Origin: a virus | Length of the DNA stretch: 26,580 nucleotides | IMG/VR virus record: IMGVR_UViG_3300032020_000040 | Coordinates: 1-26,580 of that record | Strand: one strand, 5' to 3' | In this document: in pieces, positions 146 through 19,065 of the stretch | Layout: each line of letters starts with the position of its first letter | Position numbering within the stretch: position 1 is the first letter of the stretch | Program-made: the position numbers and the translations under genes | The notes under the pieces: model-generated | Database searches by the model: none | What the model was told of the DNA's origin: nothing | The model's input: only the letters and a program-made list of their open reading frames with translations

Positions 146-1570
146 CTACGGGCGGTTCAGGACCATCAGGCGGATCTCCGTCTGGTCTTCGATGGCGTAC
201 TTGACCCCCTCGCGGCCGAAGCCCGAGTCCTTCGTGCCCCCGAAGGGCATGTGGTCGATGCGGAAGGTGGACACGTCGTTGATCATGACGCCGCCCACCT
301 CCAACTCCTCGAAGGCGCGGAGGGCGTGGTCCAGGCTGCCGGTGAAGACGCCGGCCTGAAGCCCGTAGGGCGACTCGTTGACGCGGGCCAGCGCCTCGTC
401 AAAGTCGTGGAAGGAGTAGATGTCGACGATAGGCGCGAAGGCCTCGAGGCTGCATATCTTGCAGGCCGTGCCGACGTCGGCCAGCACGGTGGGCTCGAAC
501 AGGCGGCCCTGGCGCTTTCCGCCGACCAGGACACGGCCCCCGGCCTGCACGGCCTCCTCGATCCAGGACTGGATGCGCTCGGCGCTGGCGTCGTCGATGA
601 CGGGGCCCACGTCTGTCTCCGGGTCCAGGGGGTCGCCCACCTTCAGGCGCTTCACGGCGTCCACGAGCGACTTGGAGAACGCGTCGTAGACCTCCTCGTG
701 GATGAAGACCCGCTGCACGGAGATGCAGACCTGACCGGCGAAGGAGAAGGCGCCGGCGACCACACGCTGGACGGCGTAAGGCAGGTCGGCGTCGCGGTCG
801 ACGATGACGCCGCCGTTGCCCCCCAGCTCCAGCACCACCCGCTTCTTGCCGGCCCGCTCCTTCATCCCCCAGCCGACAGGCGAGGAGCCAGTGAAGGTGA
901 GGAGCTTGAAGCGGTCGTCGCTTACCAGGCGGTCGCCCAGGGCGCGGGTCATAGGCAGGACGCTGAAGCCGCCCGCCGGCAGTCCCGACTCGTGGACGAT
1001 GCGGGCCACGGTCAGCAGCACCAGCGGCGCATCGGAGGGCGGCTTGACGACCACCGGGTTTCCGGCGGCGATGGCCGGGGCGATCTTGTGGGCGGCCAGG
1101 TTGAGGGGGAAGTTGAACGGCGAGATGGCCGCCACGGGCCCGATGGGGAACCGGCGGGTGATACCCAGGCGCCCCTTGCCGAAAGACAGCCAGTCGATGG
1201 GGATGACCTCGCCGCCGATGCGCTTGGCTTCCTCAGCGGCCACCTTGAAGGTGTTGACGGCCCGCGCTATCTCCACGGCGGCATCGCGGACCGGTTTCCC
1301 CGCCTCCTGCGCCATGAGCCGGGCCAGCTCATCGCGTTTCTCAGCGATGCCGCGGGAGATGAAGGCCAGGATCTCCTCGCGCTCGAAGGAAGCGAGGCGG
1401 CTGGTGGTCTTGAAGGCCTTGTGGGCGGCTGCCGTCGCCTCCTCCAGTTGCTCGGCGCTGGCCAGGTAGGTGGTGCCTACCGGGCTGCCGTCGTAGGGGC
1501 TGGTGACAGGCAGGGGCTCTGATGATTTCTCCCACCGGCCCGCCAGGTAGAGGGGCCACTCGTTGCTCAT
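146..1570 (-). CDS. NAD(P)-dependent aldehyde dehydrogenase
   Basis: This 474-residue protein belongs to the aldehyde dehydrogenase superfamily, whose members oxidise an aldehyde to an acid or acyl product with NAD(P). The Rossmann region carries SPFNFPLN and NPVVVKP (about residues 150-177). The general base is Glu248 in LELGG and the catalytic nucleophile is Cys282 in GQVCISVQRV, both in place. Length is normal for the family. The GQVC context resembles lactaldehyde, succinate-semialdehyde and non-phosphorylating glyceraldehyde-3-phosphate dehydrogenases, so the substrate is uncertain. I chose the ATG at 1570 because AAGGAGG lies about six bases upstream; an upstream ATG at 1588 would precede this ribosome-binding site. 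This is host DNA left of the prophage. Its own promoter region adjoins the insertion point. Confidence 0.93.
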   Translation of the reverse strand: MSNEWPLYLAGRWEKSSEPLPVTSPYDGSPVGTTYLASAEQLEEATAAAHKAFKTTSRLASFEREEILAFISRGIAEKRDELARLMAQEAGKPVRDAAVEIARAVNTFKVAAEEAKRIGGEVIPIDWLSFGKGRLGITRRFPIGPVAAISPFNFPLNLAAHKIAPAIAAGNPVVVKPPSDAPLVLLTVARIVHESGLPAGGFSVLPMTRALGDRLVSDDRFKLLTFTGSSPVGWGMKERAGKKRVVLELGGNGGVIVDRDADLPYAVQRVVAGAFSFAGQVCISVQRVFIHEEVYDAFSKSLVDAVKRLKVGDPLDPETDVGPVIDDASAERIQSWIEEAVQAGGRVLVGGKRQGRLFEPTVLADVGTACKICSLEAFAPIVDIYSFHDFDEALARVNESPYGLQAGVFTGSLDHALRAFEELEVGGVMINDVSTFRIDHMPFGGTKDSGFGREGVKYAIEDQTEIRLMVLNRP

Positions 1571-1671
1571 GGACTTCCTCCTTGCCATACCTCCGCTAGT
1601 CGAGGCCTGGGGGCTCCAGGTGCCGCCAATAGTCGAAGGGGATTACGGGGCTCGGGGCGTCGCAGACCTTT

Positions 1672-1768: not shown

Positions 1769-2731
1769 TTGACAACACTGACCCTGACTAGCTCGCATAT
1801 TGATGCGCCTAATCTTGGGGGCATTCGCCGGGAAGACCAAGAGGATATTACGGCCTTCCTAGACAGCCTAGCACGCCGGAGCCCCAAGACAAAGAGCACC
1901 TACAAGGAAGCGGTTGAGAGGCTGGCGCTCTACACAGCCAGCAAGGGGATGCCTCTGCTAGAGAATCTAGAGCGGGAGCATCTTGAAGCCTTCTTCAACA
2001 GCCTGAAGGCCAGGGGGAACGCCCCGGCCACCATCCGCAATCGTCAAGCCAGCCTCCGCGTCTTTTTCAACTGGACGGTTGAGTTTGACCTTCGGAAGAC
2101 CTCCCCGATGGCTCGCGTTAAGTGGGAGCCGGTCCCGGACAAACTACAGCCTCATTACGAGCCCCAGGACATCATGGCCGTGTTGGAGGCCATCAAGGGC
2201 AGTGACATCCTGGCCCTCCGGGACCGGGCCATCGTGCTCGTTCTCTATGATACGGGCCTCCGGGCTCAAGAGCTTTGCGATCTCCGAATCGGAGACCTAG
2301 ACCGGGAGGCGCGAATAGCCAGCGTGGTGAGTGGGAAGGGCGGCAAGGGTAGGCGCGTCCGCTATGACGCAGCCGTTGCGAGTGCAATATTCAAATACAT
2401 CCGGAAGCGGGGTTCACTAGAGCCTGGGGCGCCGCTGTTCGCAGCCCGCGGTAACAAGCCGCTAACCTTCAATGGGCTCCGGATGCTCCTAGAGCGCCGG
2501 TTCAAAGCAGTCGGTGTTGCGTTCAGGGGAGCGCATGGCTTTCGCCGGTCGGCTGGTATCGCGTTCCTAGATGCAGGCGGTAGCAGTGAGGATCTCAAAG
2601 AGCTTATGGGCTGGTCCTCTTGGGCCATGCTCTATCGATACACAAAGGCCACGGCGTCTGAGAGGGCGCTGAGGGCGCATGAGGCACATTCGCCGGTGGC
2701 GGCAATGATGGCGGGAGGTAGGCGGGCATGA
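1769..2731 (+). CDS. int: Tyrosine recombinase (phage integrase, XerC/D-like)
   Basis: This 320-residue protein has an N-terminal SAM-like core-binding domain (about residues 25-115) and a C-terminal catalytic domain. Visible catalytic residues are Arg165 in DTGLRAQEL, the beta-hairpin lysine in SGKGGKGRR, His256 and Arg259 in HGFRR, Trp in place of the usual second His in GWSSW, and the nucleophile Tyr291 in YRYTK. The length is typical of compact Xer-like integrases and there is no long arm-binding domain. I accept the TTG start at 1769 because GGGAGG lies about 8 bases upstream and promoter copy 1 precedes it. The stop overlaps the next ATG (ATGA), so the lipoprotein is probably co-expressed. 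Its expected role is site-specific integration and excision of this prophage. Confidence 0.93.
   Translation: MTTLTLTSSHIDAPNLGGIRREDQEDITAFLDSLARRSPKTKSTYKEAVERLALYTASKGMPLLENLEREHLEAFFNSLKARGNAPATIRNRQASLRVFFNWTVEFDLRKTSPMARVKWEPVPDKLQPHYEPQDIMAVLEAIKGSDILALRDRAIVLVLYDTGLRAQELCDLRIGDLDREARIASVVSGKGGKGRRVRYDAAVASAIFKYIRKRGSLEPGAPLFAARGNKPLTFNGLRMLLERRFKAVGVAFRGAHGFRRSAGIAFLDAGGSSEDLKELMGWSSWAMLYRYTKATASERALRAHEAHSPVAAMMAGGRRA
1786..1798 (+). repeat. End-repeat motif GACTAGCTnGCAT, left copy
   Basis: GACTAGCTCGCAT lies within the first codons of the integrase gene. The same motif occurs at 25133-25145 with one mismatch and at 25082-25095 with one extra base. Copies near both prophage ends suggest integrase arm-type sites or an attachment repeat; function is inferred. 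Confidence 0.4.
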
Positions 2732-7784: not shown

Positions 7785-9103
7785 CATCTTTCCTACGTGC
7801 TCTGTTCAACAAGGCCCCAATCGCCTATGTCCGCAATGTCGGACTGGGATTCGGCGGCATGGTTGGGACCGCCCCCAATGTTGAGGGCCTCCTAAGAACC
7901 TACGGCTCGGTTGGCACCCTGTTCGCTATCGTCAACCGGCTGGCGAATAGCACGGCCTCGATCAACTGGCACCTCTACCGGGCCGTGCAAGGCGGTGAGC
8001 CCGTTGAGGTGCTGAATCATCCCGCAAAGGATTTGTGGGATAAGCCTAACCCCTTCTACAGCCAAAACGACTTCATAGAGACGTGCCAACAGCACCTTGA
8101 CTTGGTAGGCGAGGCGTGGTGGATCATCTCTCGGAGCAGCGTGGGGTTCGGCCCGCCCCTAGAACTCTGGCCCATCCGCCCCGACAAGATGTCGCCTGTG
8201 CCTCATCCCACCGAATTCATCTCAGGCTACCTCTACTGCAACGGCGGGGAGCCCGTCCCCTTCAAGCTCGAAGACGTTATCTGCCTCAAGAGTCCTAACC
8301 CCCTTGACCCCTACCGTGGCATCGGGCCGGTGCAGAGCATCTTGACCGACATCGACGCCGAAAGATTCAGTGCCGCGTGGAATGCTAACTTCTTCCGCAA
8401 CTCCGCCGAGCCCGGAGGCATCATTCAGGTAGACAAGAAGCTCTCCGACGATGAGTTCAATGAGATGTGCCTACGGTGGAAGGAGCAGCATCAAGGTGTT
8501 CAGAATGCCCACCGGGTAGCCGTGCTAGAGCAGGCCACGTGGGTGGACCGCAAATACACACAGCGCGATATGCAGTTTGCGCTTCTCCGAGAGACTAATA
8601 GGGAGATCATCCGGGAGGCTTTCGGCTTCCCGAAGCCCCTTTTGGGCACTACTACGGATGTGAACCGGGCCAACGCAGAGGCGGCAGAGGTTGTATTCGC
8701 CCGCTGGTGCGTCCGGCCCCGCCTAGAAAAGATCAAGATGGCCCTCAATGAGAAGCTCTTACCCCTGTTCGGCACGAGCGGGAAGGGCCTTTACTTCGAT
8801 TACGAAGACCCAACGCCCCAAGATAGAGCCCAGGACACCACCGAAATGACGGCAAAGGCCACTGCTCTCGTGTCTTTAGTGGGCGCTGGGTTTGATCCGG
8901 TTGAGGTCTGCCAGATGCTTGACCTCCCGGAGCTCACCCACACCGCCCCTGCCCCGGCGCCGTCGCCCTTCCCGCAAAACAGATTCCGGGGAAAGGTTGA
9001 CCCCGTGCAGCAGGCGCAGAAGCGGATAGAGCGCAACTGGTCCGACCGACTCGATACCGAACAGGCCAGTCTACAGAGGTTCGTCGATGATCGGGCCGGA
9101 TGA
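7781..9103 (+). CDS. Portal protein, HK97 family
   Basis: This 440-residue protein forms the ring at the capsid vertex through which DNA enters and to which the connector binds. Typical features are the N-terminal SVGTLFAIVNRLANS helix, LWDKPNPFYSQNDF, VICLKSPNP with the following YRGIGPVQS, and ANAEAAEVVFARWCVRPRLEKI near residue 310. The proline/alanine-rich stretch APAPAPSPFPQNRF near residue 390 marks the start of the variable C-terminal tail. I accept the GTG start because it is coupled by GTGA to the preceding mini-gene and the protein begins at the expected place. It overlaps the MuF-like gene by 17 bases, the usual portal-MuF order. Confidence 0.93.
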   Translation: MTSFLRALFNKAPIAYVRNVGLGFGGMVGTAPNVEGLLRTYGSVGTLFAIVNRLANSTASINWHLYRAVQGGEPVEVLNHPAKDLWDKPNPFYSQNDFIETCQQHLDLVGEAWWIISRSSVGFGPPLELWPIRPDKMSPVPHPTEFISGYLYCNGGEPVPFKLEDVICLKSPNPLDPYRGIGPVQSILTDIDAERFSAAWNANFFRNSAEPGGIIQVDKKLSDDEFNEMCLRWKEQHQGVQNAHRVAVLEQATWVDRKYTQRDMQFALLRETNREIIREAFGFPKPLLGTTTDVNRANAEAAEVVFARWCVRPRLEKIKMALNEKLLPLFGTSGKGLYFDYEDPTPQDRAQDTTEMTAKATALVSLVGAGFDPVEVCQMLDLPELTHTAPAPAPSPFPQNRFRGKVDPVQQAQKRIERNWSDRLDTEQASLQRFVDDRAG

Positions 9104-9653
9104 CATCGATCACTGGCTCTCTCAGAGGGATTGGGCCACCCTCTACGGCGCCGATGTAGAGGCCGAGTTCGCTGATCTCTTCCATGCGGTTCTCGTTCGA
9201 GAGGGCGTCGCCGACGGCCAAGCGCATCTTTTGGCTGCAAAGTACGCCGAACAGCGAACCGGCGACTTGATCCGTGGGCTGGAAGACACCACCATAACCA
9301 ACCTGCGCGGTCTAGTCTCTCAGGCCATCGGCCGCGGCGATAGTCTGGGGGCTCTCAAGAAGGCCATCCGCGAGGACCAGACCTTCAGCCCCCGCCGGGC
9401 GGAGACGGTGGCCAGAACGGAGACGGCAACGGCGCTCGGCCAGGGCAAGCGTGCTGCGGCTGTTGATCAGGGCCGGGATCAGAAGATGTGGCAGGCCAAC
9501 CCCGACGCCTGTGCCGACTGCCAGGAGAACGAGACCGGCGACTGGCTACCGATAGACGAGAGCTTCCCTTCCGGCGATGACACCATCCCGGCGCACCCAA
9601 ACTGTGAGTGTGCGGTTCAGTATCGTACGGCGGCATTACACGAGGAAGATTGA
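9087..9653 (+). CDS. MuF-like minor head protein
   Basis: This 188-residue protein lies directly after the portal and overlaps it by 17 bases. The second half has the phage Mu gpF-type head morphogenesis signature: ARTETATALGQGK, then MWQANPDACADCQ, and a terminal HPNCECAV, where the Cys and His residues probably bind zinc. The N-terminal half is helical (FADLFHAVLVREGVADG, LRGLVSQAIGRGDSL). Such proteins are packaged in few copies inside or near the portal and help head assembly or DNA injection. The protein is shorter than Mu gpF and has no C-terminal toxin domain. Its stop shares a base with the next start (TGATG). Confidence 0.85.
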   Translation: MIGPDDIDHWLSQRDWATLYGADVEAEFADLFHAVLVREGVADGQAHLLAAKYAEQRTGDLIRGLEDTTITNLRGLVSQAIGRGDSLGALKKAIREDQTFSPRRAETVARTETATALGQGKRAAAVDQGRDQKMWQANPDACADCQENETGDWLPIDESFPSGDDTIPAHPNCECAVQYRTAALHEED

Positions 9654-15740: not shown

Positions 15741-16517
15741 ATGGCTAAGAAATCGGGACTCGGAGATAACTTCTACATCAGTGGCTATGACCTCTCAGGC
15801 GACGTGGGCGCCCTGTCTAAGATCGCCCTGCCCTGCGCCCTGCTTGACGTGACAGCCATTGACAAGTACGCCACCGAGCGTAGGCGCGGGCTGAAAGACG
15901 GGAGTATCGATTTCAACACCTGGTTCAATGACGCCAAGATAGCGGACGGCGACCCCACCGACCAGGAGCACATCGTCCTGAAGGGCTTGCCCCGGACGGA
16001 TGTGATCGCCCTCTACTACCGCGGCACGATCTTGGGGGGACCTGTCGCCGCTATCCTCGGAAAACACGTCAATTACGACTGGGTACGGGGGGCGGACGGC
16101 AGTCTTCAGGGGACCGTACAGGTACTCGGCCAGGGCTCCCGCCTTGAGTGGTGTGAATCCTTGACCGTGGGCAAGCGCACCGATGTAGCTGCGACCAATG
16201 GCGCAAGCGTTGACTACGGCGCTGTAGACACCAAGTTTGGCTTGAGTGCCTACCTAGAGGTCTTCGCCTTCGACGGAACAGACGTGACCGTGAAGCTACA
16301 GGACTCGGCCAACGATGCGGCCTGGGATGACATCGTGGACGCTGCCTTTGCCCAGATCACCATAGCGGCGCCACCGGGCCAGGCACAGCGCATCGAGATC
16401 GGCTTGACAGCGACGGTTAGGCGCTACGTGCGCGCCGTGACTGTGACCACGGGCGGCTTCGCCAGCCTGGTGTTTGCCGTCGCATTCGATAGATACCTGG
16501 GGGCTAGAGACCCCTAG
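15741..16517 (+). CDS. Major tail tube protein (258 aa)
   Basis: AGGAGG stands about seven bases before the ATG. The N-terminal half has the tail tube layout: MAKKSGLGDNFYISGYDLSG, LLDVTAIDKYATERRRG, IDFNTWFNDA and VRGADGSLQGTVQVLGQG. After residue about 135 a second beta domain follows (LEVFAFDGTDVTVKLQDSAND, RYVRAVTVTTGGFASLVFAV), likely a surface-exposed Ig- or carbohydrate-type domain on the tube. The next gene encodes a shorter paralogue that lacks this domain. It is one of two candidate tube subunits; which dominates cannot be told from sequence. Confidence 0.85.
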   Translation: MAKKSGLGDNFYISGYDLSGDVGALSKIALPCALLDVTAIDKYATERRRGLKDGSIDFNTWFNDAKIADGDPTDQEHIVLKGLPRTDVIALYYRGTILGGPVAAILGKHVNYDWVRGADGSLQGTVQVLGQGSRLEWCESLTVGKRTDVAATNGASVDYGAVDTKFGLSAYLEVFAFDGTDVTVKLQDSANDAAWDDIVDAAFAQITIAAPPGQAQRIEIGLTATVRRYVRAVTVTTGGFASLVFAVAFDRYLGARDP

Positions 16518-16537: not shown

Positions 16538-16951
16538 GTGGCTAAGGAATCTGGACTTGGGATGACCATTTCAGTTGATGACTCGGCTGGAACGCCTCAG
16601 GCCATCTCTAACGACATCCTCTCAGTGGGCATCAAGACCCCACGCGGCGTACAGGACATCACGGGCATCAACAAGAGCGCTATCGAACGGCTCTTGCTGC
16701 TTGCTGACGCTGAAGTGGCCCTATCCGGCGTGTTCAATGACGCGGCTAACATGAGCCATTCCGTCTTCAAGAACTTCGCCACCATCCTCGCGGGACAGGT
16801 GGGGCGCACGGTCGCCATCGCCATTAGTGGGCAGACGCTCTCAATGGAGATGCTGTTCGATGACTACGCGCTCACCAGGGCCGCCGACGGGAGCCTAACT
16901 TGGACCGTCACGGGCCGCCTGGCTGACGGCACTGCGCCTGCGTGGTCCTAG
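16538..16951 (+). CDS. Second tail tube protein paralogue (137 aa)
   Basis: A strong AGGAGGT lies seven bases before the GTG start. The start MAKESGLG mirrors MAKKSGLG of the preceding gene, and conserved blocks align: DITGINKSAIERL with DVTAIDKYATERR, SGVFNDA with NTWFNDA, and RAADGSLTWTV with RGADGSLQGTV. It lacks the C-terminal extra domain. Two tail tube paralogues in tandem suggest a duplication with division of labour, such as one forming the bulk tube and the other a distal or decorated part. It is followed by its own strong ribosome-binding site for the tail chaperone. Confidence 0.82.
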   Translation: MAKESGLGMTISVDDSAGTPQAISNDILSVGIKTPRGVQDITGINKSAIERLLLLADAEVALSGVFNDAANMSHSVFKNFATILAGQVGRTVAIAISGQTLSMEMLFDDYALTRAADGSLTWTVTGRLADGTAPAWS

Positions 16952-16960
16952 GAGGACTAG

Positions 16961-17317
16961 ATGCCAGCGTTTAGGTTCAAGCAGCGCGTGGCCCAGCTCG
17001 TCTTCGAAGACGAGGACTATAAGGGCGCCGAAGTCCGGGTACAGCTCGACTTCCCCATTGGGGAGTTCCTCGCTATCCAACGGCTTCAGGCTGACCCGGA
17101 GAGCACCGAACAGCTTTGCCGGTTCATAGCCAGCATCCTTGTGGATTGGAACCTAGAGGATGACAAAGGCGCTCTCCCGGCGAGTTACGAGGGTGTGCTA
17201 CGGGTGCCCCCGCTCTTCATAAGGCGGCTGGCTGAGGAGTTGGTAAAGGCTCTGACCGAGCCCCCTGTCCCTTTAGAACAGCCATCGCCAAGTGGAAGCA
17301 TGTCGGGGGCGGAGTAG
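16961..17317 (+). CDS. Tail assembly chaperone, short form (118 aa)
   Basis: AGGAGG precedes the ATG. The protein (FRFKQRVAQLVFEDED, VQLDFPIGEFLAIQRLQ, CRFIASILVDWNLEDD) is the lambda gpG-like chaperone that coats the tape measure protein before tube growth. It ends at a TAG at 17315-17317. Just before the end it contains a canonical slippery site, so a fraction of ribosomes continue in the -1 frame. It lies exactly between the tube genes and the tape measure gene, the conserved position. The C-terminus is proline-rich (EPPVPLEQPSPSGS). Confidence 0.88.
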   Translation: MPAFRFKQRVAQLVFEDEDYKGAEVRVQLDFPIGEFLAIQRLQADPESTEQLCRFIASILVDWNLEDDKGALPASYEGVLRVPPLFIRRLAEELVKALTEPPVPLEQPSPSGSMSGAE

Positions 17318-17478
17318 ACCAACAGGGCAACGTGGTGGGGAAGCCGTGGGAACTTGTAGAGGCCGAGTTTATCCTTGCTCTCTGCGCGCGTTTCCACTGC
17401 CTGCCGAGCCAGTTGCTTCGGGAGCCTAGCTCGACGTTGCTGCTGCTCGCTGTAGAGGCAGTAGGAAAGCCTGAGTAA
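16961..17478 (+). CDS. Tail assembly chaperone, -1 frameshift fusion (G-T type)
   Basis: Ribosomes that slip back one base at 17269-17275 read on from AGA at 17275 through AIAKWKHVGGG, PWELVEAEFILALCARF and LREPSSTLLLLAVEAVGKPE, to TAA at 17476-17478. The product is 172 residues: 105 from the first frame and 67 from the second. The open -1 frame has clean coding content, its stop directly abuts the tape measure ATG at 17479, and the second part has the usual hydrophobic helical look of the T extension. It has no start or ribosome-binding site of its own, so it can only be made by frameshifting. Confidence 0.88.
17269..17275 (+). promoter_or_regulatory. -1 ribosomal frameshift site CCCTTTA
   Basis: CCCTTTA fits X XXY YYZ exactly, in phase C CCT TTA (0 frame) shifting to CCC TTT. 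It lies 40 bases before the 0-frame TAG and enters an open -1 frame that ends right before the tape measure gene. I see no convincing strong stem immediately downstream. Confidence 0.88.
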
Positions 17479-19065
17479 ATGCCGAACGATGTAGTTATCC
17501 ACATCAAGGGGAGAGACGAAGCCTCCCGCGTGCTCGATGGCGTCACCAAGAAGGCGGGCGGGCTCGGCTCTGCCCTCAGCGGCGTCACTAAGATTGCCGG
17601 TGGCTTTGTCATGGCTCGGGGCATCATGGCGGCGCCCGGTATGCTCATGGATATGACGCAGGCCGCGGCGGATGACGCTGCCTCTGTCGCCAAGCTACAA
17701 CAGGCAGTCGAGAACAGTGGTGCCAAGTGGGAGGACTATGAAGGCACGCTTAATGGCGTCATTGAGACGGCCCAGAAGCGCGGGTTTACCGACGATCAGG
17801 CCCGCGATGCCCTATCCCTTCTGACTGCCCAGACGGGCTCCGCAGAGGAGGCGGCAAAGCGGTTCGCGCTGGCCCAGGACCTAGCCCGTGGTGCCAACAT
17901 TGATGTCTACACAGCCTCTAAGCTCTTGGGCAAGGTCACAGAGGAGAACGTCAACGTCCTATCTAGGTATGGCATCGTTGCCAGGGAGGGCATGAATGAG
18001 ACCGAACTTTTCGGGATGGTGCAAGAGAAGTTCGGCGGGCAGGCGGAGACCTTCGCCAACTCTACGGCGGGCCAAATGGAGGCCGCCAAGATTCAGATGG
18101 GGGAATTGAAGGAGACCATCGGCTATGCCCTCCTGCCCGTTATGACGAAGCTCATGCAAGTCATCGCGGACAACATGCCGCAGATTCGGGCCTTCATAGA
18201 GGAGGGAATCAGGCGAATCAAAGAGGTCATGGAAGCCCTAGCGCCGGTCGCACGGGCCCTTTGGGACAACTTCAAGAGGGGCCTTGAGACGATCTACCCC
18301 CCACTCAGAGCTCTTGCGGAGTTCATCGTAAACAACAAGCCTGTTCTCATTGCGGCCATCCTTGCCATCGGCGCTGCAATCGTCATCGCTCTAGGACCCG
18401 GCGAGCTCGCCGTCCTTGCCATCGTCGGCCTCATCGCCCTCATCGGCTACCTCCGGGATCACTGGACCGAGATCTCGAATGCCATTGTGGGCAAGCTGAG
18501 GTGGCTCAAGGACAGCTTCTTTAAGCTGGTGGGCGGGCTCCGGGACTGGCTAGCCGATAATTGGAAAACTATCGTCAACGCCGCTCTGTTCATCCTCTTC
18601 CCGGCTGCCGGTGGCCTCTTCTTCATCGTGACCCATTTCCAAGAGGTCAAGGATCGGGTTGGTAACATTCTCAATGCCCTCGTGGGCTTCTTCGAGAACG
18701 CCTTTGAGCGGATGCTCGCGCCTATTCAGTGGGTCATCGATAGAATCTGGCAACTGATCGGCGCCATCAGAAGTATCCCATCGCCCGGTGACGTTCTGGG
18801 CGGTCTAGGCGGTCTGCTGGGGAAGATACCCGGCTTTCAGGCAGGCGGCTATATCCCATCCGCCCAACTCGCTGTTGTGGGCGAGCGGGGCCCTGAGTTG
18901 GTAGCCCTACCCGGCGGGAGCCGCGTCTATTCCAACAGCGAGAGTCGGGGAATGGGCGGCGGCGGCCAGACCATCAACAACTACGGGCGCATCAACAACA
19001 TCTTTCCGAACGCCGACCCCAGGGTTGCTTTGAGAGAGACAGACAGGCTCTTTAGGGGTGCCTAA
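17479..19065 (+). CDS. Tape measure protein (528 aa)
   Basis: This protein sets tail length and later helps DNA entry. The N-terminus is helical (GRDEASRVLDGVTKKAGGLG, IAGGFVMARGIM) followed by long amphipathic helices (residues about 55-240). Hydrophobic segments lie near residues 287-324 (LIAAILAIGAAIVIALG, AVLAIVGLIALIGYL) and 364-388 (FILFPAAGGLFFIV), as in other siphovirus tape measures. The C-terminus GFQAGGYIPSAQLAVVGERG and PELVALPGGSRVYS is the widely conserved tape measure end motif. With about 0.15 nm per residue, the tail would be near 80 nm. It starts right after the frameshift fusion stop, and its stop overlaps the next ATG (TAATG). Confidence 0.93.
   Translation: MPNDVVIHIKGRDEASRVLDGVTKKAGGLGSALSGVTKIAGGFVMARGIMAAPGMLMDMTQAAADDAASVAKLQQAVENSGAKWEDYEGTLNGVIETAQKRGFTDDQARDALSLLTAQTGSAEEAAKRFALAQDLARGANIDVYTASKLLGKVTEENVNVLSRYGIVAREGMNETELFGMVQEKFGGQAETFANSTAGQMEAAKIQMGELKETIGYALLPVMTKLMQVIADNMPQIRAFIEEGIRRIKEVMEALAPVARALWDNFKRGLETIYPPLRALAEFIVNNKPVLIAAILAIGAAIVIALGPGELAVLAIVGLIALIGYLRDHWTEISNAIVGKLRWLKDSFFKLVGGLRDWLADNWKTIVNAALFILFPAAGGLFFIVTHFQEVKDRVGNILNALVGFFENAFERMLAPIQWVIDRIWQLIGAIRSIPSPGDVLGGLGGLLGKIPGFQAGGYIPSAQLAVVGERGPELVALPGGSRVYSNSESRGMGGGGQTINNYGRINNIFPNADPRVALRETDRLFRGA

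Follow-up and report, generated by a model that had tools for sequence, protein, structure and literature searches.

Programmed -1 frameshifting of the kind used for the lambda G and GT proteins is a well-known phage strategy, and the slippery heptamer in lambda is GGGAAAG. Both gpG and gpGT bind the tape measure protein, the T part of gpGT binds the tail tube subunit, and the molar ratio of the two proteins is approximately 30:1 (PMC5009743). Here we describe a locus that very probably employs the same strategy, from a family that is almost absent from cultured phages.

The DNA analyzed is a 26,580-base IMG/VR virus record, which is called the window when referred to at its full length. It encodes an integrase (1769-2731, plus strand), a terminase, a portal protein, a protease, a major head protein, and tail genes. 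An aldehyde dehydrogenase gene (146-1588, minus strand; Pfam Aldedh, E 3.4e-150) adjoins the integrase at the left end, and because this gene is presumably host flanking DNA, the window is probably an integrated prophage. The same ORF is matched by PHROG 15577, a family of unknown function (E 3.6e-126), and therefore this PHROG may hold a host-derived aldehyde dehydrogenase. The tail genes relevant here lie on the plus strand in the order major tail protein, G, T, and tape measure, with G and T overlapping. The upstream neighbor is a major tail (tube) protein candidate (15741-16517; phrog_9522 major tail protein, E 5.9e-15), a second tail protein candidate sits between it and G (16538-16951; phrog_10528 major tail protein, E 5.1e-05), and the tape measure protein occupies positions 17479-19065 (phrog_991 tail length tape measure, E 2.4e-21).

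The G ORF, read directly from the sequence, is preceded by AGGAGG and extends from its ATG at 16961 to the TAG ending at 17317 (118 aa, plus strand). Near its 3′ end is the heptamer CCCTTTA (17269-17275), over which the zero-frame codons are CCT and TTA. This confirms by direct reading the proposal in the earlier note that the heptamer is in the exact phase (C CCT TTA) for -1 slippage. After CCC TTT, the -1 frame continues with AGA (17275-17277), and from there the T frame (17275-17478, plus strand) remains open for 67 codons up to a TAA at 17476-17478, directly abutting the tape measure ATG at 17479, just as had been claimed. The -1-frame translation across the site reads PF and then RTAIAKWKHVGGG..., and both the 161 bases between the G stop and the tape measure start and the predicted junction peptide (VPL from G joined to RTAIAK from T) match what had been noted previously.

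It is highly likely that programmed -1 frameshifting at CCCTTTA yields G and GT tail assembly chaperones in a lambda-like manner. A tailed temperate phage whose tail genes follow the lambda order would in this way obtain two chaperones from one gene. The majority of ribosomes would synthesize only G and terminate at 17317, while a minority would slip by -1 at C CCT TTA, with tRNA-Pro leaving CCU for CCC and tRNA-Leu leaving UUA for UUU. The slipped ribosomes would then translate the T domain to 17478 to generate a GT fusion of 172 aa. By analogy with lambda, G would coat the tape measure protein and GT would recruit tail tube subunits through its T part, which is why the ratio of G to GT would matter for tail assembly. 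This reading is supported by the phase, the open frame, the deep conservation of a heptamer and of T, the gene order, and the predicted folds; the occurrence and rate of slippage and the binding partners of G and GT are what we infer from it.

How often such a site would arise by chance was assessed by synonymous resampling of the G gene: 1.1% of the draws had an in-phase XXXYYYZ heptamer among the final 30 codons. Because of this chance level, the CCCTTTA site alone is only suggestive, and it is the relatives that decide the matter. Among the 5,831 codons of the window that were checked, there are 11 in-phase XXXYYYZ heptamers, and CCCTTTA occurs just once, at G. Two others, GGGAAAG at 8989 and CCCAAAC at 9596, were considered as sites of a second frameshift and rejected, as the -1 frame closes after a few codons in each case. 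They lie within the portal and head-morphogenesis ORFs, are chance matches, and could be used as internal negative controls.

Relatives were sought in viral contigs, genome contigs, whole genomes, and phages with the protein sequence, not the heptamer, as the query. A first scan of genome contigs for relatives of the window gave no match, and a second recovered only Streptomycetaceae prophages from a group that is sister to that of the window. The searches together yielded approximately 50 related loci, comprising IMG/VR contigs, prophages of the Streptomyces family, and one cultured phage (Dagobah), which form 31 lineages when clustered at 60% identity. Every one of the 31 lineages carries an in-phase XXXYYYZ heptamer at nearly the same position, with G in frame 0, T in frame -1, and T open and conserved. 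The homologous protein is divided in this way at each locus whose region is complete. Left out of this count were one locus cut by a contig end (L013) and one truncated relic with no G match (L067); the latter is a relic prophage in a Streptomycetaceae genome that retains a T remnant and lacks both G and the heptamer. The earlier note had named relatives without the heptamer, or with a stop in the -1 frame, as the observations that would count against frameshifting, and among the intact relatives none of either kind was found.

The heptamers themselves vary among lineages (CCCTTTG in 20, CCCTTTA in seven, and TTTTTTA, AAAAAAG, GGGAAAA, and TTTAAAA in one each). Six different heptamers at one place indicate that it is slipperiness that is conserved and not the letters. 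Moreover, the AAAAAAG and GGGAAAA sites are located two or three codons further downstream than the CCCTTT sites, and this displacement suggests that heptamers came and went within a short interval without loss of the slip. One Streptomycetaceae prophage (L060) has a second in-phase motif, CCCCCCG, 31 codons upstream of its conserved CCCTTTG; its row in the tree is mislabeled with CCCCCCG, and the conserved CCCTTTG was used in later counts. The family offers a natural series of six heptamers that are interchangeable at a single site, with which one could ask what properties of a slippery sequence selection retains.

The T frame also changes in the manner of a coding sequence. When substitutions between the window and a relative were scored beyond both zero-frame stops, the third base was favored in each comparison, with 4/3/10 changes at -1-frame codon positions 1/2/3 relative to L006, 13/10/31 relative to L007, 16/17/27 relative to L008, and 19/15/30 relative to L010.

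Among the alternatives, the one that fares best, although it too is very improbable, is that T is translated separately by internal initiation or by termination-reinitiation, without a frameshift. The end of G does overlap the start of T, and GTG or TTG codons occur in the T frame of some relatives. However, the T frame has no start codon that is conserved ahead of the conserved T domain. In the window, the T frame has GTG only at codons 21-22 and TTG at codons 48 and 56, all inside T, while L051 has no start codon whatsoever in this frame and several other relatives have one only past codon 45. Independent initiation of T is unlikely for these reasons, and it would also leave the in-phase heptamer in every lineage unexplained.

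A still less credible alternative holds that the fusion is made by stuttering of RNA polymerase rather than by ribosomal slippage. Runs of seven A residues in two relatives (L019 and L023), and the longer A run that encompasses the AAAAAAG of Geobacillus phage GBK1, are the sort of sequence this would call for. Transcriptional realignment has been tied to longer runs (more than seven A or more than eight T residues; PMC3711429), whereas the longest run in CCCTTTA is three, which disfavors transcriptional slippage at the window locus. Furthermore, the phase of the site is preserved as that of a tandem-slip heptamer. Finally, the in-phase matches at 8989 and 9596 with their short dead-end frames show that such motifs do arise by chance, and the G site might be another of them, with T left over as a decayed or non-coding sequence. 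This hardly deserves credence when every intact relative, down to approximately 40% identity, has an open T frame with protein-like content and the changes in T are biased toward the third base.

If programmed frameshifting at CCCTTTA is accepted, the manner in which slippage is promoted can be considered. The earlier note saw no obvious strong downstream stem, and our analyses agree: RNA structure downstream of the window site does not exceed that of shuffled sequences (z +0.5 to +2.2), and no stable downstream structure was found across the family (mean z about -0.4 to -0.5). For the CCCTTTA group, to which the window belongs, there is likewise no upstream stimulator resembling a Shine-Dalgarno (SD) sequence, as the observed value of -3.24 kcal/mol is close to the -3.21 kcal/mol of synonymous resampling. 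The lack of both kinds of stimulator weighs against frameshifting, as do the lower efficiency of UUR heptamers in E. coli (PMC4066793) and the scarcity of profile matches to known chaperone families. In the CCCTTTG group, the SD-like stretch is stronger than expected from synonymous resampling (-6.06 versus -4.08 kcal/mol, in 29 of 36 loci, with kinship ignored). Such stretches lie no more than 20 bases upstream of CCCTTTG, for example in L032, L048, and L049.

In the E. coli measurements of Sharma and colleagues, which covered all 64 heptamers, ZZN codons composed entirely of pyrimidines or entirely of purines shifted best (PMC4066793). CCCUUUA and CCCUUUG thus form the weaker half (UUR class) of the CCCUUU series, although for each a -1 shift above 0.10% is listed even when no stimulator is present (PMC4066793). 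The earlier note described CCCTTTA as a less common form; in the family of the window, CCCTTTA and CCCTTTG are the usual heptamers. All 48 CCCUUU sites in the family end in a purine (A in 12 and G in 36) and none in C or U. A weaker-class CCCUUUR site would fit a low requirement for GT, although a need for Leu and not Phe in G would be an equally simple reason.

The seventh base of the heptamer offers a lead with regard to the host. CCCTTTG is present in all 23 intact Streptomycetaceae prophages (L040-L042 and L047-L066) and CCCTTTA in none, a count that ignores kinship. The CCCTTTA loci come from viral contigs and from one genome (L046), which belongs to a phylum-wide sample in which its class is represented by only three genomes. 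Dagobah, which infects Streptomyces coelicolor, has GGGAAAA and is likewise without TTA. In S. coelicolor, the bldA tRNA is the sole reader of UUA and is dispensable for growth (PMC2000904). Thus, a heptamer containing UUA would tie synthesis of G and GT to host development, and avoidance of TTA at the site becomes a testable idea. In the tree, the CCCTTTA rows form a group that also takes in a few CCCTTTG rows, whereas those of Streptomycetaceae fall in more than one part. The deep branches are weak, however, so kinship alone may explain the split between CCCTTTA and CCCTTTG. It is only a tentative speculation, and one we consider rather more apt to fail than to hold, that the family keeps a CCCUUUR heptamer with its seventh base tuned to the host and that Streptomycetaceae sites avoid the bldA-read UUA. 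The same heptamer series should be useful for asking whether host tRNA supply shapes a slippery site.

The assignment of G and T as a tail assembly chaperone pair, which had been made from the sequence alone, remains a prediction and is supported by gene order, by fold, and by weak PHROG matches. A Pfam search for chaperone families gave no match, and family searches with G alone and with T alone returned nothing useful. PHROG 344 (tail assembly chaperone) was matched weakly by two of nine family members, with a best E value of 0.0066. The G protein, which could be aligned with its relatives, has a predicted structure with a pLDDT of 86, and proteins annotated as tail assembly chaperones are among its top fold matches in viral models (E 3.9e-3 and 1.2e-2, prob 1.00). 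The model for T has a pLDDT of 89.8 and consists of a helix, a hairpin, and then three further helices.

Several known systems can be compared with this locus. CCCUUUA is the slip site of Giardiavirus. The heptamer appears together with frameshifting in a Giardiavirus paper (PMC8230311), and the likeness extends to the heptamer only, as this is a eukaryotic double-stranded RNA virus and the gene is unrelated. The HK97 tail assembly chaperone (PDB 2OB9) is the best PDB match to the G model and Bacillus subtilis YqbN (PDB 3KLU) the fifth, each below significance (E 0.42 and 4.0, respectively; TM 0.37-0.47). The lambda gpG/gpGT system shares with the window a short ORF between the tube protein and the tape measure, near whose 3′ end a -1 slip adds T (PMC5009743). 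The window differs in its CCCTTTA heptamer, in that no stimulator was found, and in that none of the named chaperone families was matched significantly by sequence.

The comparison extends to phages whose fusions have gone unannotated. Geobacillus phage GBK1 (MN727882) has a likely -1 fusion at AAAAAAG (L068, 1638-1644) that was deposited as two hypothetical ORFs. Annotation also needs correcting in the family of the window, actinomycete and environmental siphophages whose GT fusion is overlooked. The sole cultured homologue with good coverage is Streptomyces phage Dagobah (MT711977), in which the G and T domains are found in HUN42_00022 and HUN42_00023, immediately ahead of the next large ORF. 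Here too the deposited record has two hypothetical ORFs and lacks a joined gene. In Dagobah, an in-phase GGGAAAA (L028, 3279-3285) would give the -1 fusion, a heptamer different from that of the window at the junction of the same two domains.
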